The position numbers and the translations under genes were made by a program. The notes under the pieces are model-generated. The model was not told where the DNA came from and ran no database searches. It was given only the letters and a program-made list of their open reading frames with translations. From contig NZ_JAFLWA010000003.1 of assembly GCF_017316125.1 (NCBI RefSeq), forward strand, positions 1-64,000: a DNA stretch of 64,000 bases. The letters are read 5' to 3'. This document shows positions 5,600-63,082 of the stretch, one piece after another. Numbering within the stretch: the first letter of the stretch is position 1; each line of letters opens with the position of its first letter. The DNA comes from Enterococcus sp. DIV0660C. Its GTDB lineage: Bacteria > Bacillota > Bacilli > Lactobacillales > Enterococcaceae.

Positions 5600-5600
5600 A

Positions 5601-5640
5601 AACAAGCTTGGGATAACTAATATCCCAAGCTTGTTTGTTA
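5601..5640 (+). terminator. Terminator of the flavoprotein gene
   Basis: A long near-perfect stem AACAAGCTTGGGATA / TATCCCAAGCTTGTT with a 5-base loop begins two bases after the stop codon and is followed by TTGTTA. It is a strong hairpin with a short U tract. Confidence 0.85.
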
Positions 5641-5663
5641 CTTTAGCATTTCAACTTTACAGC

Positions 5664-5714
5664 AGCAAACAAGCATGCAAACTATTTTTTAGTTGGTATG
5701 CTTGTTTGCTTTTT
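5664..5714 (+). terminator. Second hairpin between the flavoprotein gene and gntR
   Basis: GCAAACAAGCAT pairs with ATGCTTGTTTGC around a loop of about 20 bases, followed by TTTTT. It points in the plus direction and backs up the first terminator before the convergent regulator gene. Confidence 0.7.
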
Positions 5715-14989: not shown

Positions 14990-15079
14990 TCAAAAAGAAA
15001 TAGCAACAATCAGACCAATCAATGCGATGGTAAACATACCAAAGCCGAGAATGATTTGAATTGTTTCATAAGCGGACAA
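14990..15079 (-). CDS. Putative holin-like toxin (type I toxin-antitoxin family)
   Basis: The minus strand encodes 29 residues from a TTG at 15079: MSAYETIQIILGFGM, then FTIALIGLIVAISF and a stop. This is the pattern I know from the short holin-like toxins common in Enterococcus, Lactobacillus and Bacillus: a polar N-terminus and one membrane helix. Such peptides depolarise membranes and are silenced by an antisense RNA. The usual Lys/Asn-rich tail is missing here, so the copy may be shortened. An extended -10 (TGCTATAAT) lies on the minus strand at 15165-15173, and a hairpin TCTTTGC/GCAAAGA with a T run follows the stop. I see no clear ribosome site, so activity is uncertain. Confidence 0.7.
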   Translation of the reverse strand: MSAYETIQIILGFGMFTIALIGLIVAISF

Positions 15080-15173
15080 AAGGGTAGCGTCCAGTACGTA
15101 TATTCACAAGCACTACCACGTTTCAAGAAGCAATCACCGTCATTCAACTTCACTGTCAAATTTGATTATAGCA

Positions 15174-15222
15174 TAAGCCTTCCTAAACATAAGTAAATGT
15201 TTGGGAAGGCTTTCTTTTTTAT
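15174..15222 (+). terminator. Plus-strand terminator opposite the toxin promoter
   Basis: AAGCCTTCC-AAACAT pairs with ATGTTT-GGGAAGGCTT, followed by TCTTTTTT. No plus-strand gene precedes it closely, so it may end an antisense RNA to the toxin mRNA; it overlaps the region where the toxin promoter would lie. Confidence 0.75.
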
Positions 15223-51963: not shown

Positions 51964-52009
51964 TAAAAAAAGCCAGAAGCAATTTGTCCATTGCTTCTGG
52001 CTTTTTTTG
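51964..52009. terminator. Bidirectional terminator between fbp and the hydrolase gene
   Basis: AAAAAGCCAGAAGCAA pairs perfectly with TTGCTTCTGGCTTTTT around TTTGTCCA, with A and T runs outside. It serves both convergent genes. Confidence 0.95.
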
Positions 52010-52026
52010 ATAGAGGATTCAATTTT

Positions 52027-52746
52027 TTATAATTCATTAACGAAGTAATCAAAGAGACTTTGATCTAGTGGATTGACTTGGTGAGTCAATTCAGGATGCC
52101 ATTGAACACCCAAAATTTTTTCTTCAGGATTTTTGCTTTCGACTGCCTCGATGATTCCATCATTAGCAATAGCAATTGCTCTCAATGAGGGGGCTAAGTC
52201 TTTGATTATTTGATGGTGATAAGAATTGACAAAATAAGATTCTGGTAACAAAGACCCCAGCAGACTATTAGCAGAAACCTTTACTTCATGAGTAGCAAAA
52301 GTTGGAACCGTTGGTTGTTGTTCATGTTTGACTGCCCAATTGGGATAGAGGGAAAGGTCTTGGTACAAGGTTCCACCTAGTACCACATTCACTAATTGTG
52401 TGCCGCGGCAAACAGAAAAAATCGGCTTTTTTTGTTTGATTGCTTCTGTGATCAAGGATTGTTCAAAAAGATCACGACTGATATTTGTTTCTTGTAACTT
52501 TGGATGTGGCTCTTCTCGGTACAATCGAGGGCTGATATCTTGTCCCCCGGCTAATAATAATTTATCGATACGGCTGATAAAGGTAGCGGCATAGCTTGGT
52601 TCAAGTATAGGAAAGACAAGCGGTAACCCACCTGCTTGTTTGACTGCTTGAACAAAGCCATGTGGGGTGTAGGTAACTTCATTTCCTTGAAAAGTATCTG
52701 TTGCTTTATTTAAATGATTACCGGCAATTCCAATAATAGGTTGCAT
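52027..52746 (-). CDS. Gamma-glutamyl-GABA hydrolase family protein (class I amidotransferase fold)
   Basis: This 239-residue protein is a class I glutamine-amidotransferase-like hydrolase of the PuuD/peptidase C26 type. The catalytic triad is visible: nucleophile Cys in IFSVCRGTQLVNV near residue 114, and His-Glu in GVQWHPELTHQ near residue 216; LLLAGGQDISPRLY near residue 65 is the family's glycine loop. PuuD releases GABA from gamma-glutamyl-GABA in putrescine breakdown. GGAGG-like bases precede the ATG. No other putrescine-breakdown genes lie near, so the substrate is only suggested by the family. Confidence 0.88.
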   Translation of the reverse strand: MQPIIGIAGNHLNKATDTFQGNEVTYTPHGFVQAVKQAGGLPLVFPILEPSYAATFISRIDKLLLAGGQDISPRLYREEPHPKLQETNISRDLFEQSLITEAIKQKKPIFSVCRGTQLVNVVLGGTLYQDLSLYPNWAVKHEQQPTVPTFATHEVKVSANSLLGSLLPESYFVNSYHHQIIKDLAPSLRAIAIANDGIIEAVESKNPEEKILGVQWHPELTHQVNPLDQSLFDYFVNEL

Positions 52747-52901
52747 AGTTGTTCCTCCAGACTGTAACTAAATTGATTGTAACAACTTTTGAAAAAAAGT
52801 GGAAATACTTTGAATTTTTTTTTGTCATCCTGAAACCCTGATACTATTAGGGTTAGTTAGACTTTTTTCGTAAGAAGTCAGTATAAAACGCTCGAAAATG
52901 G

Positions 52902-52929
52902 TTGAACATTTACCCCGTTTTGCTATAAT
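52902..52929 (+). promoter_or_regulatory. Promoter of the V-ATPase operon
   Basis: A -35 TTGAAC (52902-52907) and a consensus -10 TATAAT (52924-52929) are separated by 16 bases, giving a start near 52936 and a leader of about 170 bases before ntpF. Confidence 0.85.
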
Positions 52930-52935
52930 AAAAGA

Positions 52936-53087
52936 CAAATTAAAATAAAAAAGGTTGGGCGTAAGCTTTCAAGGATCAAGTTCTTCAAGGGGTGAGAAGA
53001 ACAGTTGTTGAAAGTAGCTTGATTACTAGACAGATATCGTTAGAGGTAGCTGACTTTCAATGAACTTGAAAGGCAGCTACTTTTTTT
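52936..53087 (+). ncRNA. Structured ntp leader, candidate riboswitch with terminator
   Basis: The leader folds in two ways. AAGC-TTTCAA (52963-52972) pairs with TTGAAA-GTA-GCTT (53008-53020), enclosing hairpin GTTCTTC/GAAGAAC (52980-53002); this would leave the terminator free to form. The terminator is GTAGCTG-CTTTCAA paired with TTGAAAG-CAGCTAC (53046-53080) followed by seven T. Alternatively, TTGAAAG-T-AGCT (53008-53019) pairs with AGCT-GA-CTTTCAA (53048-53060), which destroys the terminator. This is the layout of a transcriptional riboswitch. Because the operon makes a Na+ pump, a Na+-sensing class (the DUF1646-motif type) is the first candidate; the ligand is not proven. Confidence 0.75.
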
Positions 53088-53107
53088 ATCGAAAGGATGT
53101 GAACGAT

Positions 53108-53428
53108 TTGTTAGAGATTTTAGAAAAGATTCGGAAAGCAGAAGAAAAAAATGAAGAACAGATGCAAGTTTTACGTACTGAGATGCAGGAGTTAACAAAG
53201 CAAAAAGAAGACGAGCTTCACACAATTGAAGAAAGAAAGCGCCAAGAACAAACTCAGCTTCTTTCGGAAAAAAAACAAATCAAAGAAGCAACACTTAAAA
53301 GCAAACAAAAGCAGCTAGATGAAGAAGTTCAGCAGGTTCAACAAACACTAACTGAACAGTATGACAAGCATCAAGAACAAGCAATTGATCTAATCATTGA
53401 AAGGGTGAAAGAATATGTCCGTCACTAA
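53108..53428 (+). CDS. ntpF: V-type ATPase subunit F (peripheral stalk)
   Basis: In the E. hirae naming, NtpF is a peripheral-stalk subunit (subunit G of other V/A-ATPases) that pairs with NtpE to hold the catalytic head. The 106-residue protein is almost entirely coiled coil, rich in Glu, Gln and Lys ([20 protein letters not shown]). I chose the TTG at 53108, which has AAGGAT 9-10 bases upstream. Earlier in-frame starts (GTG 53099, ATG 53060) are too close to the ribosome site or lie inside the terminator hairpin. It overlaps ntpI by 14 bases and is the first gene of the operon. Confidence 0.9.
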
Positions 53429-55412
53429 GATGGAAAAAGTCACGCTCATTTCAGATCAAAAGAACCAAGAAACGATTTTACAAGCCATTCAAGGAATCCA
53501 ACAAGTCGAATTTCGCGATTTATTTCAAGAAACGACAAATAATCATTGGGTCGAAACTTACTTTCCGCAGGTCAAGATTTTTTCTGAGGATACGAGTAAA
53601 CATGAATTAGAGCAACGACTGCAATCAATACGTGAAGCGGTTCAATTTATTGGACATCATGGTCATTCTCAACAAAAGTTGGTCCATTTAAAGCGGACGG
53701 AACTTTCTTTACATGAGTTAGAAGCTGCTTATTCAGAAACTGATTTTTTGAGAAAGTTACAAGAAGTCTTGGACTTGAAAAAACAGTGGGAGAAGCTAAG
53801 TGAACAACAAAAAAAACTAATGGAGGAAGAGGAATGGCTTTTAAAGTGGCAATATTTGGATGTCATTCCTGCAACTTTCGATAGTCAAAAAACAGTTCTT
53901 GTTTTAGGAAGCATGGGAACGAATAGTTTGGCGCTTTTCCAAAATGCTGTGGCACAATTACCTGTTTATATGAAAGAAATTTATTCTACAACAAAATCTG
54001 TTTACTTGGCGTATATTACTTTGCAGGAAGCAGCGGAACAAGTAGCAGAAATCGCCAGTCGACAAGGCTTAACGGTAATGAACTATCCTTATGATGACGT
54101 GCCAAGTAAGGTTTTAACTAAAATCAAAGAACAATTGTCAGAAATACAAGTAGCTCAAAAAGAACTGGCCAACAAGATTGGTTCATTCCAAGAATTGATT
54201 CGTGAGTTTGAATGGGTGGAAGAAGTGACATTGGCACTGATTGAACGTGAAAGAGTTAAACAACAATTTGTTCGTTCAAAACAGTTACTTGTTCTACAGG
54301 GGTGGATTGGAATAGATGCAAAGACAGATTTGATGACTGCTTTAGCCGAAAAACTCCCAGCTTCGGCTGTTCATGTTCAGTTTGAACTACCGACTGTCGA
54401 AGAAATCCAGACAGAAGTGCCAACAAAATTAACCAATCATCCACTGATTGAGCCATTTGAATTACTGACAGAGATGTATAGTTTGCCAAAATATGAAGAA
54501 GTTGATCCAACTCCTTGGTTCATGCCATTCTATCTTGTCTTTTTTGGCATGATGGTTGCAGACGTTGGATATGGGCTATTGTTATTGATTGGTTCGGTTC
54601 TGTTGCAAAAATGGGTTGTTTTGCCACGTGGATTGGCAAGATTTGTTAAATTTTTTGAGATTCTATCTATCCCAACGATTATCTGGGGGTTGGTTTACAG
54701 CTCATTTTTCGGGGAGGCATTACCAAAAAGTATCTTTGGTATACCACTGCCATTTCCTATTTTATCAACAACAGAAGATGTGAATACGATTTTGATTTTG
54801 TCAGTTATTTTTGGCTTGATTCAAATTTTAGTTGGTTTATTTGTTTCAGCAAAAGAAAATTTGAAAAGAAAAGCGTATTTAAATGCGATTAGCGAAGGCT
54901 TTGCTTGGCAAGGTATCCTGATTGGGATCGTTTTTGCTGCAGTCGGGGTAATTGTTTTAAAACAGAAACAATTTTTATATCTTGGTGGCGGTATCGCGAT
55001 GTTGTCGGCACTTTGCATTGTGATTATTCCAATCATTCAGTCTACTTCAAGGGTAAAAGGTGCTGCTAAAGGCGTATATAACTTATATGGATTAACGAGT
55101 TATATTGGTGATCTAGTTAGTTATACTCGTTTGATGGCACTTGGGATTTCTGGTGGCAGTATCGCCGCCGCGTTTAATATGTTGGTAGCATTCATGCCGC
55201 CAGTAGCACGATTTAGTGTTGGGTTGCTTTTGATTGTTCTCTTACATGCATTAAATCTATTTTTAACATTGTTGAGTGCGTATGTTCATGGTGCTCGATT
55301 ACAATATGTCGAATTTTTTGGCAAGTTTTATACAGGTGGCGGACGAGCATTTCAACCACTTAAAACCGCAGAAAAATATGTCAATATCAATCATCGAAAA
55401 CGAAAAAAATGA
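53415..55412 (+). CDS. ntpI: V-type ATPase subunit I (stator a subunit)
   Basis: NtpI is the membrane stator with the ion half-channels. The 665-residue protein has a long cytoplasmic N-terminal part with coiled coils (residues about 1-340) and a C-terminal membrane part with about seven helices. The essential arginine is in [16 protein letters not shown] near residue 573, facing the NtpK rotor. The start overlaps ntpF. The AAAGGGTGAAAG before the ATG serves as the ribosome site. Confidence 0.95.
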
Positions 55413-55430: not shown

Positions 55431-55904
<474 letters not shown>

Positions 55905-55923: not shown

Positions 55924-56508
55924 ATGGATGCCATTGAACAAATCATTAAACAAATGAATGAGGACGCAGCAAATGAACGTGCTGCTTTTGAAGCGGCAGA
56001 GCGCAAAAAAATCGAGCAAGACTTCAAACAAAAATCGGAACAATTAATGGCTACTTTTCAGCAACAAGAGCGTAAGCAACTCGAGTCGTTGGAGCGACAT
56101 TATCGACAATTAGAAAATCGTCAACAAGTTGAAGCTCGACAAGAAATGCTGAATAAAAAACAAGTTTTTTTAGATAAGCTATTTGATGAAGCAATTGAGA
56201 AAATGGAAGCGTGGAAACAACAAGATACTCTAGCATTTGTTCAAGCAGCCTTGGATCCATTGGCATTAAAAGGAGAAGTTACTTTTCGGGTAGGAGAAAA
56301 ATCAGCAGATATTTTTACAGAAGAGAGAATAAACAATCTATCGCAAAAATTACCTTTTACCTTAGTCAAAGATCCGAAGGTGATTCCCAATGAGGCTGGC
56401 TTTGTATTAGACAGTGACGGAGTTCAATATAACTTTTTATTTAGTCGTTTAGTGACAGAGTTAAGAGGTACGATGGGCTACGAATTAGCACAGCAATTGT
56501 TTACTTAA
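55924..56508 (+). CDS. ntpE: V-type ATPase subunit E (peripheral stalk)
   Basis: NtpE pairs with NtpF in the peripheral stalk that links NtpI to the catalytic head. The 194-residue protein has an N-terminal coiled coil (about residues 1-100, rich in Gln, Glu and Lys) and a globular C-terminal domain that caps the A and B subunits (FLFSRLVTELRG). AAGGAGGAG precedes the ATG. ntpC follows after 11 bases. Confidence 0.93.
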   Translation: MDAIEQIIKQMNEDAANERAAFEAAERKKIEQDFKQKSEQLMATFQQQERKQLESLERHYRQLENRQQVEARQEMLNKKQVFLDKLFDEAIEKMEAWKQQDTLAFVQAALDPLALKGEVTFRVGEKSADIFTEERINNLSQKLPFTLVKDPKVIPNEAGFVLDSDGVQYNFLFSRLVTELRGTMGYELAQQLFT

Positions 56509-56519
56509 GGAGGGGAACG

Positions 56520-57506
56520 ATGAACTATCACGAATTAAATCCTTTGATTCGCGGGAGAGAGCTTGAATTATTGACGAATGAAGATTTCGAGCGGTTGATT
56601 CAAGCCCCTTCAATTGACTCATTTGGCGAACAATTAAAAACAACGATTTACCAACCTTATGTTTATGAAGGATTTGAATATGAACTGGAGCAAAACTTAG
56701 TGAAGGAGCAAAGTGAATTATTTGCATGGTTGAAAGAACGAGTCCCTGAGCCAGAAATTCTCTGGATCTATACGATGCGTTTTACTTTTCATAACTTGAA
56801 AGTGTTGACTAAAGCGGAACTTACCGGGAAAAACTTAGATCATTTATTTATTGATGATGGTTTCTATTCATTGGATAAGTTGAAAGAAGCGATTCGGACA
56901 CAAGATTCGATTGAACTACCGGAGACATTACTTGCTAGTATCCGTGAAGTATTTGATTACTTTGAGGGAGCAACTATTTTACAGGGAATCGATGTGATTT
57001 ATGATCGTCATTTTCTAACGGAACAGCGCCGACTTGGCGAGAAGCTCGGTTACAAGGAGCTGTTGACGGAAATTATTGCATTGATTGATCTCACGAATAT
57101 TACGACGATGGCGCGTGGACTGATCCAAGGTCGAACAAAAGGATTTATGACAACGGTTCTTTCAAGTGCGGGCGGCATCGAAAAGGAAATCTTTTTATCT
57201 TTTATTGGTCAAGATTTAGAAGTGTATAATCGTTTTTTATTAACGACCGACTATGCAGAAATTATTCGTCCTGCACTAAAAGAAACGAAAATTGATCTAA
57301 TTACTTTAGAACGTTTGAAGGATGACTATCTTTCTTCACTTTATCAGGAGGCACAAACACAGGCTTTTGGACCATTACCTCTACTTGCTTTTTTAAATGC
57401 AAAAGAAGTAGAAGGCAAGAATTTGCGTTTGTTAGCAGTTGGTAAACGTAGTCAGTTTAGCCCAGAACAAATCAGAGAGCGGGTGAGAACAATCTATGGG
57501 GCATAA
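56520..57506 (+). CDS. ntpC: V-type ATPase subunit C (rotor connector, d-like)
   Basis: NtpC is the funnel-shaped subunit that joins the central rotor shaft to the NtpK ring. The 328-residue protein is all-helical, has three-fold internal similarity and ends [16 protein letters not shown], typical of the family (vacuolar d / archaeal C subunit). AAGGAGGGG precedes the ATG. It overlaps ntpG by 11 bases, so the two are coupled. Confidence 0.94.
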
Positions 57507-57807
57507 AATTGGAGTAATTGGCGATAAGGCGTCTGTTTTACCCTTTCAGTTAGTTGGTTTTGATGTTCACTTTGAAACAGATTCAAAAAAGGTGCGTCGA
57601 CTCGTGGAAAAAATGGCAAAAGAGAACTATGGTGTGATCTATATCACAGAACAATGTGTGTCTTCTATCCCAGAGGTGATTGCTCGCTACCAAGAACAAC
57701 TGATGCCAGCAATCGTGCTAATCCCTAATTATCAAGGAACAGAAAAGATTGGAATAACAGAAATTCAAAACAATGTTGAAAAAGCCGTAGGTCAAAATAT
57801 TTTATAG
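57496..57807 (+). CDS. ntpG: V-type ATPase subunit G (rotor, F-like)
   Basis: NtpG is the small rotor subunit (subunit F of vacuolar and archaeal enzymes) that binds NtpD in the central shaft. The 103-residue protein has the CheY-like fold with [19 protein letters not shown] at the start and VIYITEQCV in the middle, and ends in an amphipathic helix. It overlaps ntpC and is followed by ntpA after 21 bases. Confidence 0.94.
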
Positions 57808-57828
57808 TAGGGAAAAGGAGCGAATGAT

Positions 57829-60982
<3,154 letters not shown>

Positions 60983-60984
60983 TC

Positions 60985-61623
60985 ATGGCAAGACTAACGG
61001 TGAATCCAACACGCATGGAGTTTACTCGTTTAAAAAAACAACTAACGACAGCGACCCGTGGCCATAAATTATTGAAAGACAAGCAAGATGAATTAATGCG
61101 CCAGTTTATTTTATTAGTTCGCAAAAATCATCAACTTCGTCAAGAAATGGAAGCTGAACTACAAGCTGCCATGGCAAATGTTGTTCTAGCGAATGCGTCT
61201 ATCAATGAAGCGTTCATCGAGGAACTGTTTGTTTTACCCACCGAAACGATGGAATTAGCAGTGACTGAAAAAAATATTATGAGTGTCAAAGTACCAGTGA
61301 TGAACTTTCAATATGATGATCAACTGGGAGAGGCTCCGTTAGAGTACGGTTATTTAAACTCCAATGCAGAATTAGATCAAGCAATTGAGCAGTTTACAAA
61401 GGTTTTGCCGAAATTGTTGGCGTTAACAGAAATCGAAAAAACGTGCCAATTGATGGCAAGCGAAATTGAAAAAACACGTCGCAGAGTAAATGCCTTAGAG
61501 TATATGACGATTCCTCAATTGGAAGAGACAATTTATTACATTCAAATGAAACTCGAAGAAAACGAACGTGCCGAAGTGACTCGTTTAATCAAAATCAAAG
61601 ACATGGGAAATGAACATTCATAG
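60985..61623 (+). CDS. ntpD: V-type ATPase subunit D (central rotor shaft)
   Basis: NtpD is the long coiled-coil shaft turned by the A3B3 head. The 212-residue protein has paired helices at both ends ([20 protein letters not shown] and [14 protein letters not shown]) and the family core [11 protein letters not shown]. The ATG at 60985 follows AAGGAAGTG; a GTG six bases earlier is possible. It ends with a weak terminator instead of a gene for ntpH, which is the next gene in the E. hirae operon. Confidence 0.95.
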
Positions 61624-61643
61624 TAACTATATCCCCACGTATG

Positions 61644-61681
61644 CAAAAAAGAGATTTGATGAAAATCAAGTCTCTTTTTCT
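61644..61681 (+). terminator. Terminator between ntpD and ntpJ
   Basis: AGAGA-TTGAT pairs with ATCAA-TCTCT around GAAA with mispaired bases in the middle, flanked by A and T runs. It can partly separate ntpJ from the V-ATPase genes. Confidence 0.7.
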
Positions 61682-61726
61682 CAAAAATAAACTAATATAA
61701 GAAGAATAGGAAGGCAGTGAACTTGT

Positions 61727-63082
61727 TTGAAGATACGATTGACTCAACGCTTTCAAAAATTATCAGCAGTACAATTATTAGCTTTCGGTTTTTTTACGCT
61801 GATTTTTATCGGAGGAAGCTTATTGTCCTTGCCATTTTTTAGTCGAAGTGGAGAGGCAACCAACTATCTGGATGCATTGTTTACAGCAACATCAGCGATT
61901 TGCGTTACTGGATTAGCTACTTTAAATACTGTTGAACATTGGAATGGTTTGGGACAATTGGTCTTGCTGATTTTAATTGAAATTGGCGGATTAGGTTTTA
62001 TGATGGTGCCAATCTTATATTTCACGCTTGTTCGAAAAAAGATTAGCTTGAGTACACGTATTGTGTTAAAAGAAGCGTTGAATTTAGAAAAAATGGCTGG
62101 TGTGACTGATTTGATGCTCTATATTTTCAAGTTTGCTTTAGTCATTCAACTGGTAGGTGCCATCGCATTATCTATCGTGTTTATTCCTGAATTTGGTTGG
62201 CTCAAAGGAACTTGGTACGGCATTTTTCATGCGGTTTCTAGTTTTTGTAATGCAGGTTTTGATTTATTAGGTGAGAGCCTGGTCGCATATCAAACAAATA
62301 ATTATTTGCTACTGGTGATTTCAATATTGATTATTGCTGGTGGATTAGGATTTATTGTTTGGCGTGACTTGTTGAACTTCCATCAAACGAAAAAAATCAG
62401 TTTACACTCAAAGATTGCTTTGAGTATGACGGGAATTTTATTAGTAGGCAGTTTTTTCGTTTTTCTTTTTACAGAAAAAAATGGCACACATTTTTCACAA
62501 GGCGATTTTAGTAATCGAATAGTTCACACGTTCTTTTTGAGTGTGACACCTCGCACAGCAGGCTATTCGTCGATTGACTATTCTAAGATGAGCCATGCTG
62601 GTCTGATTCTGACGATGTTTTTGATGTACATTGGTGGAACTTCTGGCTCTACTGCAGGGGGGCTTAAAACAACAACTTTAGGTGTATTGCTCGCGCAGAT
62701 GCGTTCGATGTTTAAGGGAAGGACAAGAGCCGAAATTTTTGGACGTACGATACGACAACCAACTATTTTGCGCGCACTGACTTTATTTTTTTTAACACTC
62801 ACTCTTTGCGTGGTGGCAGTAATGATATTATCAATTACGGAGTATGTGCCAGAAAAAATGGGACTTGAATATATTGCATTTGAGGTCTTTTCTGCTTTTG
62901 GCACAGTTGGCTTGTCAATGGGATTGACGCCAGATTTATCAGTTGTTGGCAAATTGTTGATTATGACGTTGATGTATACGGGGCGTGTCGGTGTGTTGAC
63001 GATTGCTTTTTCGTTGATGAAGAAAGTTCATCAACAAGAAATAAAAATCAAATACCCAGAAGAAAGTGTGATGATTGGGTAA
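61727..63082 (+). CDS. ntpJ: K+ uptake transporter NtpJ (KtrB/TrkH family)
   Basis: NtpJ is the membrane subunit of the KtrII K+ uptake system, driven by the Na+ gradient or membrane potential. The 451-residue protein has four pore loops with the K+-filter glycine: SAICVTGLA, SSFCNAGFD, TPRTAGYSS and SAFGTVGLS. No cytoplasmic KtrA/TrkA gate protein lies near. Start TTG 61727 has GGAAGG about 12 bases upstream, slightly far, so the start could be wrong by a few codons. It is the last gene of the ntp locus as in E. hirae. Confidence 0.93.
   Translation: MKIRLTQRFQKLSAVQLLAFGFFTLIFIGGSLLSLPFFSRSGEATNYLDALFTATSAICVTGLATLNTVEHWNGLGQLVLLILIEIGGLGFMMVPILYFTLVRKKISLSTRIVLKEALNLEKMAGVTDLMLYIFKFALVIQLVGAIALSIVFIPEFGWLKGTWYGIFHAVSSFCNAGFDLLGESLVAYQTNNYLLLVISILIIAGGLGFIVWRDLLNFHQTKKISLHSKIALSMTGILLVGSFFVFLFTEKNGTHFSQGDFSNRIVHTFFLSVTPRTAGYSSIDYSKMSHAGLILTMFLMYIGGTSGSTAGGLKTTTLGVLLAQMRSMFKGRTRAEIFGRTIRQPTILRALTLFFLTLTLCVVAVMILSITEYVPEKMGLEYIAFEVFSAFGTVGLSMGLTPDLSVVGKLLIMTLMYTGRVGVLTIAFSLMKKVHQQEIKIKYPEESVMIG

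Follow-up and report, generated by a model that had tools for sequence, protein, structure and literature searches.

The region analyzed in this work is a stretch of 64,000 nucleotides from Enterococcus sp. DIV0660C, referred to below as the window. Within it lies an ntp operon, which encodes a V-type ATPase and is preceded by a structured leader. The genes of the operon are arranged as follows:

53108..53428, forward strand: ntpF, V-ATPase stalk subunit, with a TTG start and the RBS AAAGGATGTGA; the name is assigned from its position within the ntp order
53415..55412, forward strand: ntpI (PF01496; PDB 8wci_P)
55434..55904, forward strand: ntpK, rotor subunit (PF00137; PDB 2bl2_A, V-type sodium ATP synthase subunit K)
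55924..61623, forward strand: ntpE, C, G, A, B and D, with Pfam matches for five of the six
61727..63082, forward strand: gene of an ntpJ-like TrkH/KtrB K+ transporter (PF02386)

Neither the ntpF ORF nor the E position (55924-56508) gave a Pfam match at 1e-5. NtpK matches 2bl2_A along its full 156 residues and differs from it at few of them. Between ntpD and the ntpJ-like gene, no forward-strand terminator-like site was listed, nor any ORF of at least 70 aa at 61624-61726; in E. hirae, ntpH is placed between ntpD and ntpJ (PMC12604602).

In the leader, a promoter comes first, then an aptamer matching Rfam family RF03071; a linker separates the latter from a terminator hairpin, and the RBS follows, with ntpF starting at its TTG at 53108. 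Its elements, including four complementary strands that we call relay strands, are listed below:

52902..52929, forward strand: sigma-70 type promoter, TTGAAC-16-TATAAT with TG before the -10 element, 10/12 consensus matches
52953..53001, forward strand: Na+-I (DUF1646) riboswitch aptamer, RF03071; 48.2 bits against a curated cut-off of 40.5, E 2.2e-8 in 2 kb, model positions 1-55
52955..52972, forward strand: aptamer P1, UUG 52955-52957 paired with CAA 52970-52972 and GGC 52958-52960 with GCU 52965-52967, UU bulge 52968-52969, GUAA loop
52980..53002, forward strand: aptamer P2 according to the RF03071 structure, seven pairs enclosing the AAGGGGUGA loop
52966..52972, forward strand: relay strand 1, CUUUCAA, within the aptamer
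53007..53024, forward strand: relay strand 2 (the switching strand), with alternative OFF and ON pairings
53048..53061, forward strand: relay strand 3, the terminator 5' arm, with CUUUCAA repeated at 53054-53060 and clade-swap covariation
53066..53072, forward strand: relay strand 4, UUGAAAG, which completes the terminator
53042..53087, forward strand: intrinsic terminator of the MFE fold, hairpin 53042-53084 (relay strands 3 and 4) and seven-U tract 53081-53087

An earlier reading of the letters alone (the sequence-only reading) had proposed a consensus promoter and a terminator in this leader, and both were borne out. The promoter is the best of 4 candidates in 1 kb (shuffled mean 2.0); a similar one is seen by eye in the 15 leaders of the genus, weaker in L010. 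The terminator and its U-tract lie within the MFE fold, for which z = -4.2 (0/200 shuffles as low), and the 53042-53084 hairpin was not listed by a simple consensus terminator scan. Separately, the terminator loop contains an ATG (53060) from which a frame continues through 53060-53107 into ntpF (122 aa ORF), probably by chance. A leader peptide from this ATG was considered and rejected after inspection by eye: the frame of L005 misses ntpF, and L013 lacks the ATG.

The Rfam scan of the whole window gave three matches above cut-off, RF03071 among them, and the ntp leader is the one RF03071 match in the window's genome. A search with the DUF1646/Na+-I covariance model was the check that the sequence-only reading had proposed for its candidate riboswitch, and the candidate passed it. 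Of the two helices named in that reading, the hairpin 52980-53002 proved to be P2 of RF03071. The long helix 52963-52972/53008-53020, which it had labelled P1, does pair as part of the MFE fold, but the label fails: P1, taken from the RF03071 structure line with the letters checked, consists of 52955-52960 with 52965-52972. Since the P1 of the model lies inside 52955-52972, the long helix is a competitor that opens the aptamer (anti-aptamer, OFF).

The RF03071 consensus blocks GGUUGGGC, GCUUUCAAG and GGGGUG are intact in the window; it departs from the consensus at one letter, where the upper-case A following CAAG is replaced by G, and in its upper P1, which is short and capped by GUAA. Covariation was examined in 20 aptamers chosen for diversity, all located before NtpI. 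In P1 and P2, 98.3% of the cells are standard pairs and two-sided changes occur in 6 of the 12 pairs (shuffled mean 2.3), values reached by 0/500 shuffles in each case; P2 contributes two-sided changes in five of its seven pairs. The loop and the lower P1 letters are invariant in this set, and the number of further pair types is not outstanding (211/500 shuffles as high). That the leader is a plain attenuator or a constitutive terminator that resembles RF03071 by chance is hardly credible. The motif is short, and nothing else speaks for such a coincidence, which is contradicted by the E-value in 2 kb, by the covariation and by the persistence of the motif ahead of NtpI in 16 of 17 genera.

The element is located in the 5' leader of a Na+ biology operon, whose rotor subunit is closest to a V-type sodium ATPase subunit K. 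It carries the conserved lower P1 and P2 loop with covariation, save for one consensus letter and the short upper P1, and its expression platform is mutually exclusive with the aptamer as judged from pairings and folds. By sequence and structure, it is confirmed as a member of the Na+-I class, and the window RNA is predicted to bind Na+.

A real aptamer fold could also serve another cation or direct pH sensing. Changed specificity is considered possible in some representatives of the class (PMC9337991), E. hirae ntp is induced by Na+ and/or alkaline pH (PMC12604602), and the window has both the substituted letter after CAAG and the shortened upper P1. Against this stand the three intact consensus blocks, the invariance of the loop and lower P1, the kinship of the rotor subunit, and the fact that no nhaA-type (Li+/Na+-II) motif was listed at E <= 10 in the 2 kb of 52000-54000; we therefore regard another ligand as very unlikely. 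The nhaA-type families are presumably included in Rfam, and the eight further rows returned for these 2 kb are all sub-cut-off, eukaryotic or viral families. The Na+-II/Li+ riboswitches nhaA-I and nhaA-II also respond to alkali ions, and the nhaA-I consensus has a similar shape; the lower P1 and P2 loop conserved in these motifs are nevertheless distinct from those of Na+-I (PMC9646797).

The Na+-I aptamer of the window is most likely coupled to its terminator through the relay strands. Their 7-mers are exact (CTTTCAA at 52966, TTGAAAG at 53008, CTTTCAA at 53054 and TTGAAAG at 53066), and an ordered four-strand relay of this kind appeared in 0/20000 dinucleotide shuffles. The proposed competition of TTGAAAG at 53008 for CTTTCAA at 52966 and at 53054 is therefore upheld. 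In the OFF (anti-aptamer) state, strand 2 pairs as 53008-53015/52965-52972 and 53017-53024/52953-52960, while its ON (antiterminator) pairs are 53007-53019/53048-53061. When the 64 kb were scanned in steps of 15, two more relay-like places emerged, a hairpin pair at about 5600-5708 and an A/T-rich place at about 18541. The former (5600-5708) comprises two consecutive hairpins with a common outer stem, AAACAAGC/GCTTGTTT, the second ending in a T-run; they are probably tandem terminators.

Folds were computed for partial transcripts, once with the aptamer clamped and once without the clamp. In the unclamped window RNA ending at 53016, the switching strand lies on the aptamer strand once made (-18.7 vs -9.7 kcal/mol), and the full leader folds into the anti-aptamer helix plus terminator (-44.0 kcal/mol). 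With the aptamer clamped, the best folds at 53062 and 53072 put the switching strand on the terminator 5' arm; at 53084, the terminator (-34.0 kcal/mol) is preferred to the antiterminator (-26.5 kcal/mol). Because the terminator wins at full length even with a clamped aptamer, the ON state would need kinetic control.

The same series was computed for 16 relay leaders, namely the 15 of the genus and L116 from another genus. With the aptamer clamped and the terminator 5' arm out, 11-23 pairs form between the post-P2 segment and the terminator arm in 16/16 leaders. Unclamped at full length, all 16 contain the terminator, and in 15 of them it occurs together with strand 1 on the post-P2 segment (5 or 6 of 6 bases). 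At the stage with the 5' arm out, the unclamped MFE of six leaders (L004, L014, L005, L007, L008 and L116) holds the antiterminator with no anti-aptamer pairs, so that OFF is not given there by thermodynamics alone and would need to be set earlier, as the switching strand emerges. In L015, antiterminator and anti-aptamer pairs are both present at this stage.

With high confidence, we read the ntp leader as a Na+-I riboswitch that works as a four-strand relay and turns the operon ON at high cytoplasmic Na+. When Na+ is absent, strand 2 (UUGAAAGUAGCU at 53008) would invade the aptamer and take strand 1 together with the aptamer 5' edge. Strand 3 (AGCUGACUUUCAA at 53048) would then pair with strand 4 (53066), and the two would form an intrinsic terminator that halts transcription ahead of ntpF. 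When Na+ is present, the locked P1/P2 aptamer would hold strand 1 and leave strand 2 free to capture strand 3 before strand 4 exits the polymerase, so that the U-tract is passed. The ON direction is predicted from this pairing logic. The family match, gene context, mutually exclusive pairings and helix-level covariation are established by the analysis, whereas Na+ binding, its selectivity and the ON direction have been demonstrated in published work on RNAs of the class from other species; we infer that the window RNA binds Na+ and that the strand 2/3 pairing is kinetically controlled.

Covariation of the antiterminator was first sought in a single MAFFT alignment (A1), which was rejected since inspection by eye showed that L003, L013 and L014 have their switching strand misplaced in it; clade-swap permutations were used instead. 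These ask whether the switching strand of each clade best fits the clade's own terminator arm, with clades within the genus assigned by eye. The native strand 2/3 assignment ranked first among 5040 permutations in each of two sets, one of 36 leaders from 7 clades and one of 26 leaders from 7 genera. Thirty of the 92 ntp leaders found in the family (g3 19, g6 4, g17 3, g13 4) have no usable second hairpin and stand outside the permutations. In single-leader shuffle tests of the antiterminator, p was < 0.05 in 9 of the 15 genus leaders and > 0.1 in three, with 0.027 for the window; the hairpin finder used in such tests picked wrong or truncated hairpins in several leaders of the direct type as well as in L154 and L176. 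The alternative pairs are thus conserved in other enterococci on the whole, as the covariation and folds indicate; the exceptions include the weak single-leader p values and the OFF fold of L014.

The NtpI encoded after the leader L014 (genome G005) is identical at 204/204 compared residues to PDB 8wci_P, V-type sodium ATPase subunit I. We take 8wci to be from E. hirae, and L014/G005 is very probably E. hirae itself. The NtpI of the window is clearly different from 8wci_P, and the window thus represents a different species of the genus from the probable E. hirae. L014 contains an RF03071 match of 43.6 bits and a separate terminator, and its switching strand pairs with the terminator arm at -15.8 kcal/mol (p = 0.003). 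In its free fold (1501-1626), only 2/6 strand-1 bases lie on the post-P2 segment, while P2 is opened with its 5' arm on the switching strand. This exception, like the departure from the consensus, concerns how the OFF state folds in detail and leaves the class and the switching direction untouched.

RF03071 was found above cut-off in 15/15 genomes of the genus. Across the family, it occurs at E <= 0.001 in 102 of 105 genomes and above cut-off in 82 of 105. All 113 listed places were fetched and sorted by NtpI only; NtpI lies downstream at 92 of them, one each in 92 genomes from 16 of the 17 genera. Thirteen family genomes have no place before NtpI. The V-type A subunit is absent from seven of them, which contain only F1-like matches near 30% identity, and present in six, all of one genus; the aptamer is therefore found in 92 of the 98 V-ATPase genomes of the family. 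One of these six, G102, has no RF03071 match genome-wide, and its fetched contigs begin inside the operon, past the leader. For the V-ATPase operons of g17 without an aptamer, no RF03071 match was obtained up to E 0.5 in the fetched upstream stretches. Such operons without a Na+ riboswitch are those of L209, L210, L212 and L215, which show sub-threshold matches to sRNA SpF22 further upstream; in the two inspected by eye, L209 and L212, an Rrf2-like regulator ORF lies just upstream of the operon.

The 21 places that are not before NtpI, L145 and L158 among them, were assigned from translated ORFs by eye. P-type cation ATPases follow 14 of them and NapA/KefB-like antiporters 4, with single cases of a TrkH/KtrB-like transporter (L184), a CaCA-like exchanger (L189) and an ABC-permease-like ORF (L180). 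A wider search covered 39 genomes reached via 40 of 80 NtpA loci, and RF03071 was present in 11 of them. Loci with the aptamer in the ntp leader include those named Alkalibacterium kapii, Alkalibacterium sp. MB6 and Vagococcus elongatus. RF03071 was found in 0/6 Streptococcus genomes and in 1/13 Clostridium-named genomes reached in this way, in the latter far from the NtpA locus; the clostridial V-ATPase association described in PMC9337991 was thus not seen in those genomes.

The leader L116 comes from G058 of genus g8. Over 1701 nt, covering the ntp leader and the start of ntpFI, it is 98.9% DNA-identical to L007 of the window's genus, and its congeners G059 and G060 show no V-ATPase match. 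Given this identity beside V-ATPase-less congeners, the ntp operon and its riboswitch were likely transferred horizontally in recent times. G058 carries three more RF03071 places.

The expression platform is less uniform than the aptamer. Under a crude rule that looks for four consecutive T close to the end of the helix, 60 of the 92 leaders count as direct, their anti-aptamer helix leading immediately into a U-tract and serving as the terminator itself. The window is not of this subtype, as its anti-aptamer helix ends at 53024 and is followed by ACTAGACAGA, not T; in its genus and others, there is a second hairpin whose 5' arm competes for the switching strand. L124, L143 and many g13 leaders combine a direct anti-aptamer terminator with a second terminator hairpin further on, and the switching strand can also pair with the 5' arm of the latter; this tandem is possibly a two-step gate. 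Placed on the NtpI tree, the two platform labels imply 7 changes, of which well-supported branches force at least 6, vs 26.7 for shuffled labels; since at least five crude labels are doubtful, 7 is an upper guess and the true number is probably lower. The leaders concerned (L009, L176, L019, L154 and L133) are labelled direct by a short T-run despite a separate terminator.

The abundance of the direct design in relatives under this crude rule, together with the weak p values of individual antiterminators, would speak for a Na+-I ON switch in the window that does not need the strand 2/3 pairing. The anti-aptamer helix would then delay or expose the terminator, and the CUUUCAA repeat would be a remnant of the origin of the second hairpin. 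A remnant is unlikely to keep a native strand 2/3 pairing that is the single best of 5040 in two sets, and without this pairing no obvious link joins the aptamer to the separate terminator. We consider this explanation improbable and retain the four-strand relay. It seems somewhat more likely than not that a nearly letter-for-letter aptamer is kept before one operon across the family while at least two exchangeable platforms (direct, four-strand relay and sometimes a tandem of both) have been swapped several times with the ON logic preserved. The relay of the window, and probably of E. hirae, would in that case be a previously undescribed Na+-I platform. The leaders also make up a natural series in which the rebuilding of riboswitch expression platforms around an unchanged aptamer can be studied.

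The class itself was characterized by White et al. in 2022 (PMC9337991). It was shown to bind Na+ selectively, with Na+-dependent read-through and an ON response in reporters; selective 1:1 binding in the mM range was reported for the kefB RNA and for one from L. garvieae. The same paper notes that enterococcal and clostridial V-type ATPase genes carry the class, which provides a mechanism of Na+ regulation, and mentions the E. faecalis EF1492 leader as a Term-seq example. EF1492 is V-ATPase subunit F, and the E. faecalis ntp genes EF1492-1500 are upregulated 6-fold on average in 6.5% NaCl (PMC3995695); the EF1492 leader and that of the window belong to the same class and precede the same gene. 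Riboswitches of E. faecalis and E. faecium are listed in PMC7724050, in whose main text ntp and DUF1646 do not appear. Other papers on the enterococcal element were not found by title or abstract among the openly licensed papers searched.

The window shares with the described class the aptamer sequence, the P1/P2 fold, the premature terminator and the predicted ON response to Na+. In the kefB RNA, the terminator takes P2 directly, whereas in the window a separate terminator is coupled through relay strands; such a relay does not appear in the consulted parts of the PMC9337991 main text, which nowhere uses the word antiterminator. The g13 leaders, whose genus we would guess to be that of E. faecalis, also differ from the window in that their anti-aptamer helix runs straight into the U-tract. 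Attenuators of the trp type are built from alternating complementary strands 1-2-3-4, in which holding strand 1 directs strand 2 to strand 3. The holder there is the ribosome, in contrast to the ion-bound RNA aptamer proposed for the window.

The candidate Na+ riboswitch of the sequence-only reading, offered as the mechanism of the ntp response to Na+, is thus supported by a match above cut-off and a conserved, covarying relay; what had to be corrected are the P1 label, the OFF fold of L014 and the novelty of the link, which was already in print. The riboswitch class and its connection to the V-ATPase are published, and the additions made here are the relay platform and the platform turnover. 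They provide a base-by-base predicted Na+ switch for the much-studied enterococcal Na+ V-ATPase operon and extend the published association, previously a single sentence, to 92 leaders and a mechanism that can be tested. Elsewhere in the window, at 15009-15180 on the reverse strand, the Listeria sRNA rli28 (RF01492) was matched with 55.6 bits against a cut-off of 45.
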